Assembly: GCF_012843675.1 (NCBI RefSeq)
Contig: NZ_JABAFO010000002.1
Span: 1-64,000, forward strand
DNA: 64,000 nucleotides
Reading direction: 5' to 3'
Source: Lactobacillus sp. MRS-253-APC-2B
GTDB taxonomy: Bacteria > Bacillota > Bacilli > Lactobacillales > Lactobacillaceae
This document shows, in pieces, positions 26,931 through 32,393 of this stretch. Under the pieces are notes generated by a model that was not told the origin of the DNA, did not search any database, and saw nothing but the letters and a program-made list of their open reading frames with translations. Position 1 is the stretch's first letter. Each line of letters opens with the position of its first letter. The position numbers were made by a program, and so were the translations under genes.

Positions 26931-27019
26931 GGAGAGTTGGCAGAGTGGTAATGCACCGGACTCGAAATCCGGCGAACCCGTGTTGAGCGGGCGCGCAGGT
27001 TCAAATCCTGTACTCTCCT
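26931..27019 (+). tRNA. tRNA-Ser (CGA)
   Basis: A class II tRNA with a long variable arm. Loop CTCGAAA between CCGGA and TCCGG gives anticodon CGA. Acceptor GGAGAGT (26931-26937) pairs with ACTCTCC (27012-27018). The discriminator position is T, not the usual G, and no CCA is encoded. Single gene with its own promoter and terminator. Confidence 0.93.
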
Positions 27020-31482: not shown

Positions 31483-31514
31483 ATAAAAAAGCACCCACTT
31501 GATTAAGTGAGTGC
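31483..31514 (-). terminator. Attenuator terminator of the serCA operon
   Basis: On the transcribed strand GCACTCACTT, loop AATC, AAGTGGGTGC and six T. It lies between the leader peptide and serC, 23 bases before the serC start. Its 5' arm (31505-31511) can pair instead with AAGTGAG (31546-31552), forming an antiterminator. Confidence 0.88.
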
Positions 31515-31582
31515 CATCCAAATTCAGTCTCGGATTTGAATTGACCTCACTTATCGCGAAGGCCAACTCAAAATGCGGCCTT
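31515..31582 (-). promoter_or_regulatory. Alternative leader hairpins of the serCA attenuator
   Basis: In transcript order: arm 1 GAAGGCC (31577-31583, touching the leader stop codon), arm 2 GAGTTGGCCTT (31559-31569, its GGCCTTC part at 31558-31564 pairs with arm 1), arm 3 GAGGTCAATTC (31538-31548, pairs with arm 2 over 11 bp with three G-T pairs), and arm 4, the terminator 5' arm, which pairs with AAGTGAG overlapping arm 3 (31546-31552). Stalling in the Ser codons favours 1:2 and so 3:4 (read-through); finishing translation covers arm 1 and favours 2:3 and termination. Confidence 0.75.
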
Positions 31583-31645
31583 CTAAACGCGGGAAGACCA
31601 TGATGAGGAAACCATCAATGCAAAATCAAAATTGTTTAACAGCAT
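31583..31645 (-). CDS. Serine-rich leader peptide of serCA (20 aa)
   Basis: ATG at 31645 follows GAGGAGGGAACTGAAC, a strong ribosome site. The peptide ends MVSSSWSSRV and stops at TAG 31583-31585; five of six consecutive codons (TCC TCA TCA TGG TCT TCC) read serine. The stop codon abuts the first leader hairpin. The Ser codons are also complementary to the leader's own ribosome site (TGATGAGGA with TCCTCATCA). This is the layout of ribosome-mediated attenuation, here sensing charged tRNA-Ser. Confidence 0.85.
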   Translation of the reverse strand: MLLNNFDFALMVSSSWSSRV

Positions 31646-31688
31646 GTTCAGTTCCCTCCTCATCAAATTATTATTTATCGTTAACAAA

Positions 31689-31717
31689 ATTATAATCTGA
31701 TTGCAAAAAAACGTCAA
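31689..31717 (-). promoter_or_regulatory. Promoter of the serCA operon
   Basis: Read leftwards: TTGACG (31712-31717), 17 bases, perfect TATAAT (31689-31694). Transcription would start near 31682, giving a 200-base leader up to the terminator. Confidence 0.85.
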
Positions 31718-31772: not shown

Positions 31773-32393
31773 ATGACCGAATTTTATATCATTCGCCATG
31801 GTCGCACCTTTGCCAATGCGGCCGGGCTTAAGCAGGGAACCATTAATACGCCGCAGACCTATCTCACTGATGAGGGACGGGCGCAGGCGCAGCTTTTGGC
31901 CCAGAATTTTGATTTGCGCGATTTTGACGCGCTTTATGTTTCGCCTTTGGAACGCACCAAGCAGACCGCGGCGATTTTAAATGAGGAGGCGCAGCTGCCG
32001 GTCATCGAAGACAGGCGTTTACTTGAGATTTCTTATGGGGACTGGGATGGTCAACCGAATGCTGATCTGATGAATCAATATCCAGAATTGTTTTCGACGT
32101 TTGTCAAGGATGTACGTCCTGAATATGCTGCCGTTGCCCATGGCGAGACGTTTACACATGTTGAAAAACGGGTCCAGGACTTTATTAAAGACGTTACGGC
32201 TCAGCATCCCAACGAGCGGGTCGTAGTCGTTACGCATGGCTTTACGGTCCGTTCGTTTGCAGCCAGTGCCACGCATGCGCCAGGCTTGACGATTCTGGAG
32301 CCAGAAAACTGCAGCGTTACTAAACTGATTGTTGAACCCACCACGCTTGAGCAGCATCTGATCTATTACAACCGTTCCACACAAGGATTCTAA
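31773..32393 (+). CDS. Histidine phosphatase family protein (phosphoglycerate mutase-like)
   Basis: The 206-residue protein has the catalytic RHG motif (YIIRHGRTFANAAG, His9 and Arg8), an Arg in SPLERTKQTA (about 60), the acid residue in LEISYGDWDG (about 86) and the second His in VVVTHGFTVRSF (about 151). It is cofactor-independent in length and more like phosphatases (CobC/PhoE type) than glycolytic mutases. It diverges from serCA over 130 bases. As no serB is visible, it may be a metal-independent phosphoserine phosphatase like those known in this superfamily; that is inference. Confidence 0.85.
   Translation: MTEFYIIRHGRTFANAAGLKQGTINTPQTYLTDEGRAQAQLLAQNFDLRDFDALYVSPLERTKQTAAILNEEAQLPVIEDRRLLEISYGDWDGQPNADLMNQYPELFSTFVKDVRPEYAAVAHGETFTHVEKRVQDFIKDVTAQHPNERVVVVTHGFTVRSFAASATHAPGLTILEPENCSVTKLIVEPTTLEQHLIYYNRSTQGF

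Follow-up and report, generated by a model that had tools for sequence, protein, structure and literature searches.

Identification of a probable serine attenuator upstream of serC-serA

The window (the whole 64,000-nucleotide stretch of DNA analysed here) very probably contains a ribosome-mediated transcription attenuator that senses charged tRNA-Ser and controls serC-serA. This reading is built on the anatomy of the serC leader, the in-frame conservation of its codons, and the covariation of its competing helices, all three of which were demonstrated. The leader combines several features expected of such attenuators: a promoter and a short open reading frame (ORF) preceded by a Shine-Dalgarno (SD) sequence, a run of cognate codons, and a terminator with an antiterminator that excludes it. 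Its ORF was also the sole match when the whole window was scanned for SD-preceded ATG ORFs of 8 to 36 codons with at least four of seven codons for one residue (or four of seven for aromatic residues) and a terminator behind them.

On the minus strand, the leader occupies the space between serC-serA and a divergent gene of the histidine phosphatase family (31773-32393, plus strand; PF00300). The phosphoserine transaminase gene serC (31466-30378, minus strand) was identified by matches above the cut-off to TIGR01364 and NF003764; it probably starts at ATG 31460 rather than at the first ATG, 31466, which overlaps the ribosome site. The phosphoglycerate dehydrogenase gene serA (30365-29190, minus strand) is located 12 bases behind serC and matched PF02826 and PF00389 above the cut-off, and its best NCBIfam match is PGDH, below that model's cut-off. 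Among named organisms, Limosilactobacillus mucosae DSM 13345 has the nearest serC, 99% identical to that of the window, and the genome of the window is closest to Limosilactobacillus mucosae.

All elements of the leader are on the minus strand. The consensus promoter of the original prediction was recovered by a consensus scan as TTGACG, a 17-nt spacer, and TATAAT (31689..31717), with 11/12 matches, and the strong ribosome site that it had reported corresponds to the SD sequence GAGGAGG (31655..31661), which in the predicted fold pairs with the first Ser codons (TTTCCTCATC). The leader ORF (MLLNNFDFALMVSSSWSSRV; 31583..31645) comprises 20 codons and a TAG stop, as had been described, and its product ends in SSSWSSRV. 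The regulatory codons TCC TCA TCA TGG TCT TCC (Ser Ser Ser Trp Ser Ser), likewise recognised earlier, occupy positions 31592..31609.

A chain of mutually exclusive arms follows. Arm 0 (TGGTCTTC; 31593..31600) lies within the Ser codons and pairs in the predicted fold with GAAGGCCG (31583-31576), behind the stop codon. Arm 1 (GAAGGCC; 31577..31583) can pair with arm 0 or with arm 2, and its first G is the final base of the TAG stop, in agreement with the earlier description of a stop codon touching a hairpin. Arm 2 (TTGAGTTGGCCTTC; 31558..31571) pairs with arm 1 or arm 3, and arm 3 (AAGTGAGGTCAATTCAA; 31536..31552) pairs with arm 2 or, through AAGTGAG, with arm 4 as the antiterminator. Arm 4 (GCACTCACTTAATC; 31501..31514), for which arm 3 is the alternative partner, is the 5' side of the terminator, and the terminator scan placed its 3' side, AAGTGGGTGC, and the T6 tract at 31485..31500; the stem spans 31514-31491 and is followed by T6. 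Helices 2:3 and 3:4 and the terminator were thus present as originally listed, whereas arm 0 had been missing from that list; helix 2:3 was described as 11 bp long, and in the predicted fold it comprises 12 pairs and, past a bulge, 3 more. The 218-nt leader stretch folds 6.2 standard deviations better than its dinucleotide shuffles.

We infer a mechanism in which ribosome stalling, a response to serine, and a transcription switch would be linked as follows. When charged tRNA-Ser is scarce, the ribosome would stall on the Ser codons and cover arm 0, so that arm 1 would pair with arm 2 and arm 3 would be free for arm 4; with arm 4 held by arm 3, the terminator would be blocked and serCA would be transcribed. 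When serine is plentiful, the ribosome would reach the stop codon and cover arm 1, arm 2 would pair with arm 3, and arm 4 would be left to the terminator, ending transcription before serC. By pairing with the SD sequence of the leader itself, the Ser codons might conceivably also limit further initiation.

Distribution of the leader in Lactobacillaceae

We searched 396 Lactobacillaceae genomes for serC, which was present in 169 at E<=1e-60. The upstream regions analysed numbered 154 and came from 150 of these 169 genomes, three further Limosilactobacillus genomes, and Ligilactobacillus equi. Under a strict rule (ATG, SD match of at least 5, 8 to 35 amino acids, location within the last 250 nt, and no fewer than 3 Ser in a stretch of 7 codons), a Ser-rich ORF was identified in 90/154 regions compared to 17/3,080 shuffles. 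A short SD-ATG ORF of any composition was found in 91/154 regions and in 208/3,080 shuffles, and 90 of these 91 regions were the Ser-rich ones. When the residues enriched in ORFs before serC were compared, Ser (90/154 regions) was followed by Asn, with 32. A looser rule, from which three chance-looking TTG ORFs were removed by hand, yielded a Ser-rich leader before serC in 107/154 regions, representing 15 genera and Ligilactobacillus equi. In 103 of the 107 leaders, the ORF and serC are separated by a terminator hairpin that scores -12 kcal/mol or better and is followed by a T tract.

The remaining 47/154 regions were negative, and one of them (G201) carries the leader further upstream. The leader was absent from all regions of genera g20 (7/7), g47 (14/14), g50 (7/7), and g19 (3/3), from one each of g53 and g56, from 8/9 examined in g39, from 4/5 in g33, and from one Limosilactobacillus. 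Since the negative regions include all those examined in g19, g20, g47, and g50, serC in Lactobacillaceae does not need the leader. T-boxes as a substitute were not found at the gathering score in the 20 of the 47 noncarrier loci that were searched. In g19 and g56, serC is preceded at a distance of ~30 nt by a terminator, with no Ser leader. A tRNA-Leu(CAG) gene was also seen upstream of serC, on the opposite strand, in 11/11 loci scanned (L197, L200, and L202-L210; g19, g23, g33, and g56).

Model R3, which was built from 30 leaders, matched 100/396 genomes at E<=1e-4. By coordinates, every row of the R3 match list except six precedes serC, and the 13 best R1 matches (E<=2.2e-7) all precede serC. 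Over 148 genomes of the order, R3 gave a single match, itself in Lactobacillaceae, and no such leader was recognised upstream of 13 order-level serC genes (L021-L033) or of three more distant ones (L010-L012). Two of these order-level loci, L025 and L033, have Ser-containing reading frames upstream of serC without a visible SD sequence.

Conservation of the leader peptide and its codons

The N-termini of the leader peptides are unrelated between genera, while the SD sequence, ATG, frame, and stop are kept. The motif SSxS occurs in 100/107 leaders, a count that is partly built in because the leaders were selected for Ser. Noncircular support comes from the Ser-rich composition of 90 of the 91 SD-ATG ORFs and from the reading frame: among the 96 regions having a TCN run, the run is in frame with the best-SD ATG in 95.

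A core, S[WRQKL][SF], was delimited in 102 leaders, with Ser before and Ser or Phe behind the middle codon by construction; five leaders fall outside it. The middle codon is TGG in 69, TTG in 11, CGG in 11, AAG in 8, and CAG in 3. Two codons before it, Ser is found in 101/102 core leaders. Three codons before it, Ser is found in 62/102 and is written TCA, TCC, AGC, AGT, or TCT, a variety of spelling that pairing alone would hardly explain.

The two Ser positions preceding the middle codon are written TCC in 82 and 85 of the 102 leaders. Overall, TCC and TCT make up 367/509 leader Ser codons (72%) versus 204/912 (22%) among those of the window's long ORFs. Base pairing to arm 1 and to the SD sequence can account for part of the conservation of the Ser codons. 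Duplexes between the SD sequence and the first Ser codons averaged -10.40 kcal/mol for cognate pairs versus -9.67 kcal/mol for swapped ones, and the cognate mean was reached in 0/5000 permutations, or in 37/5000 at the genus level; this comparison, which leaves out L106 (an incomplete row), is only suggestive of SD pairing with the first Ser codons as an extra pairing. TCG is rare, accounting for 11/509 Ser codons of the leaders; the window itself encodes a tRNA-Ser with the corresponding anticodon, CGA (26931-27019, plus strand).

Conservation and covariation of the competing helices

The position of arm 1 relative to the stop codon differs among the leaders. Near L. mucosae, arm 1 touches or follows the stop codon, and in many leaders from elsewhere in the family (TGGTCTACA...TGTAGGCC) arm 1 encloses it; both shapes yield the same chain of exclusive pairings. 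The TGG, CGG, and CAG middle codons accompany changes in arm 1.

Pairing was scored in three sets of leaders. In set A3 (30 leaders of two genera, aligned by sequence alone), the cells paired amounted to 94.1% for helix 0:1, 93.5% for 1:2, 95.2% for 2:3, 96.7% for 3:4, and 99.6% for the terminator, compared to 19 to 63% for slid partners. The numbers of pairs changed on both sides were 1, 5, 5, 3, and 5, respectively, and, of 500 shuffles, 19, 0, 1, 0, and 0 reached the covariation score, a score that kinship among the leaders can raise. The 11 leaders nearest the window (set A4) behave like A3, with weaker covariation: 92.0% (0:1), 96.1% (1:2), 88.5% (2:3), 96.9% (3:4), and 96.2% (terminator) of the cells were paired, and 11, 21, 27, 5, and 0 of 500 shuffles, respectively, reached the score. 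When helix 2:3 of A4 was slid by one column, 74% of its cells were still paired. In set A5 (19 leaders of genus g55), helix 0:1 was paired in 90.0% of the cells with zero compensatory changes, and helix 1:2 was paired in 99.3% with one compensatory pair. Compensatory changes are thus clear for helices 1:2, 2:3, and 3:4 and for the terminator and weak for helix 0:1.

The alignment across related lactobacilli that had been proposed as a check showed conserved Ser codons and alternative helices that were kept, most of them with compensatory changes. Relatives retaining the hairpins without the ORF or its Ser codons had been named as evidence against the original prediction, and the opposite was found, with the ORF and the Ser run both kept. 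Even relatives with very different N-termini, arm sequences, and stop positions relative to arm 1 keep an SD-preceded Ser-run ORF.

Predicted effect of ribosome position on the fold

The transcript was folded up to the terminator loop with the ribosome footprint masked, and the share of arm 4 held upstream (antiterminated) served as the readout. For the window, with an 11-nt footprint, this share was 0.75 without a ribosome and 0.37 with a ribosome at the stop codon. It was 0.90, 0.90, and 0.89 with the A site at S13, S14, and S15 and 0.81, 0.89, and 0.76 at W16, S17, and S18, respectively. The modelled rise precedes the Ser run, as the share was already 0.89 at L10 and 0.88 at M11 (range from L10 to S15, 0.86-0.90), and the last Ser adds nothing, given its 0.76 versus 0.75 without a ribosome. 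The sharp contrast predicted by the model for the window is that between the Ser run and the stop.

Across 105 leaders, the share at the first two Ser codons was higher than at the stop by >0.2 in 42, lower by that margin in 0, and changed less in 63. In a sample limited to at most four leaders per genus (n=42), 21 leaders changed in the predicted direction versus 0 in the other; leaders with shuffled middles gave 32 versus 15 of 168, and footprints of 8 and 14 nt gave 17 and 26 versus 0. Therefore, in the model, read-through is favoured when the ribosome sits on the Ser codons and termination when it sits at the stop, in line with the stall-versus-stop pairing logic that had been put forward from the window sequence.

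Default termination of an untranslated leader, with arm 0 holding arm 1, is a possibility that the model did not bear out: beside the value of 0.75 for the window, the median share of arm 4 held without a ribosome was 0.78 over the 105 leaders, which speaks against low untranslated read-through.

Comparison with known regulatory elements

In enteric bacteria, the textbook switch for amino acids is leader-peptide attenuation, which operates in the trp, his, leu, thr, and pheA operons. In lactobacilli, the switch on record is the T-box, which is also known to control serine genes in Firmicutes. The enteric attenuators and the serC leader alike have a promoter, an ORF with cognate codons, exclusive hairpins, and an intrinsic terminator before biosynthetic genes, and the logic of the serC leader resembles that of the his leader. 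The serC leader differs from the enteric ones in its predicted serine specificity, in its occurrence in Lactobacillaceae, and in that the regulatory codons themselves form arm 0.

The sequences were compared by an Rfam scan, in which no family matched the leader of the window. The best subthreshold match, to RF04312 (28 bits versus a gathering score of 59), covers the arms and terminator behind the ORF and was not retained. The statement that no T-box motif is present held: the T-box covariance model RF00230 had no match in the window, in the leader at E up to 10, or in 20 leader loci. The serC element RF00517 likewise had no leader match at E up to 10, and in 20 loci with other leaders the scan returned only two tRNAs and one ribosomal-protein leader. 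Elsewhere in the window, a PyrR binding site (RF00515; 3923-4034, plus strand) barely exceeds the gathering score.

Other cognate-codon leaders have been described. In Bacilli, the histidine leader peptides that precede hisS/hisZ paralogs (Naville and Gautheret 2010, PMC2965389) are also presented as a case of Firmicute leader-peptide attenuation replacing T-boxes, but they concern His and tRNA synthetase genes, and serine, serA, and serC are not mentioned in the main text of that paper. The ilv-leu operon of Staphylococcus aureus has a Leu-rich attenuator peptide (PMC5794164); it is likewise a Firmicute biosynthetic operon with a leader peptide, for which that paper gives genetic support, but the amino acid is leucine, the genes are others, and the main text does not mention serine. 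The cysS upstream ORF motif of Rhodobacterales, with tandem cognate codons and proposed ribosome-mediated attenuation (PMC8632094), shares the conserved cognate-codon upstream ORF and differs in being specific for Cys and found in alpha-proteobacteria. Also in alpha-proteobacteria, the serC element RF00517 precedes serC-serA (Corbino 2005, PMC1273637); as described there, it consists of two small stems close to the start of serC, with a proposed action on translation and with no leader peptide or terminator mentioned. An alpha-proteobacterial element before serC is elsewhere referred to as an orphan riboswitch candidate (PMC7266159). In a 2013 survey of RNA regulons that included Lactobacillaceae, the amino acid attenuators counted were only those for His, Leu, Thr, and Trp, with Ile/Val and Phe attenuators mentioned from other work (PMC3766115).

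Our literature search covered open-access papers, with subscription journals mostly outside its coverage, and there was no serine leader-peptide attenuator among the matches listed. As far as searched, the mechanism proposed for the serC leader is classical (trp/his type), and its predicted serine specificity and its clade are new. A serine attenuator distributed over ~15 genera of this family of food and gut bacteria would extend the known set by one amino acid. The leader would also offer a direct handle on serine sensing, and its many natural variants provide material on how sensitivity depends on codon choice, SD pairing, and the chain of hairpins.

Alternative explanations

The Ser codons could be kept only for RNA pairing, with the element acting as a terminator under protein or metabolite control and the peptide being incidental. 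This would fit the prevalence of TCC (82 and 85 of 102 leaders), the complement of GGAGGA, the advantage of cognate over swapped SD duplexes (0/5000; genus level, 37/5000), and the co-occurrence of TGG, CGG, and CAG codons with changes in arm 1. We nevertheless regard it as improbable, because the Ser run shares the frame of the best SD-ATG in 95/96 regions, the SD sequence, ATG, frame, and stop stay constant while the N-termini vary freely, and the Ser found three codons ahead of the middle codon in 62/102 leaders has five spellings. The sensitivity of the folding model to ribosome position and the lack of an Rfam family matching the leader also argue against it. The prevalence of Ser before serC, which exceeds that of other residues by far (90/154; next, Asn with 32), is difficult to reconcile with a constitutive attenuator, in which the terminator would only lower serCA expression and the general translation rate, not serine, would set read-through. 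Such an attenuator would be consistent with the high model value without a ribosome (0.75) and with the 63/105 leaders showing no change of >0.2, but is very improbable overall.

A tRNA-Ser T-box riboswitch is extremely unlikely. In Paenibacillus polymyxa, serine biosynthesis was reported to have a serine T-box (PMC8002221), and 291 T-boxes were counted in 15 Lactobacillaceae genomes (PMC3766115); however, the search that gave no T-box in the window, the leader, or the 20 leader loci does detect one at another Lactobacillaceae locus (L247).

A possible wider family of leader peptides

Eight places matched by R3 do not adjoin a listed serC start. Two of them precede serC after all: in G201 the gene is more distant, and in G428 (L242; G428:C1:375200-378200) the Ser leader is intact and serC is split into two reading frames, by either a real break or an assembly error. 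The match at L249 was discarded as a stray terminator, and the five remaining places (L244 to L248) carry other codon runs. Two loci of genus g25 encode YYFWY (L244) and YYFWF (L245) before PTS-IIC-like proteins, identified by Pfam as PTS_EIIC_2 in L244 and by eye in L245. At L248, YYYFWFF precedes a gene judged by eye to be aminotransferase-like; this locus belongs to genus g29, as do L250 and L251, which also have aromatic leader ORFs. The aromatic leaders of g25 and g29 have a similar chain of arms. At L246 (G088:C1:1577041), an ORF encoding VVVVVSV and a terminator precede an amino acid permease gene (Pfam). At L247 (G088:C1, ~1571700), an Arg-rich ORF and a terminator are located upstream of an Rfam T-box, before a gene that by eye is ABC-transporter-like, possibly representing two attenuators in tandem.

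A pattern search for aromatic leaders matched 3/121 genomes; the pattern was too strict, as it missed the known case G132. No codon runs were found at the weaker R1 loci L053-L069.

We see an even chance that the Ser leader belongs to a family of Lactobacillaceae attenuators with a common chain of arms and different codon runs (Ser, Leu, aromatic, Val, and Arg), the Leu, aromatic, Val, and Arg leaders being single observations and weak matches. If so, the family would constitute a second, largely unrecorded layer of amino-acid sensing alongside the T-boxes.

The Leu leader was found outside the window in the window's own genome (G000:C45:24422-24522; L035 and L253), as a Leu-rich ORF (MKKQLFVQFNNMALQLNALLLLQVKDPVA) with a strong terminator. 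Its Leu run, ALLLLQ, is the second-best R1 match in that genome (E 0.005), and it precedes a gene whose best NCBIfam match, below the cut-off, is a branched-chain amino acid ABC transporter. The Leu leader is kept in both close relatives that have this gene (L254 and L255) and thus occurs in 3/50 genomes of the genus, including that of the window.
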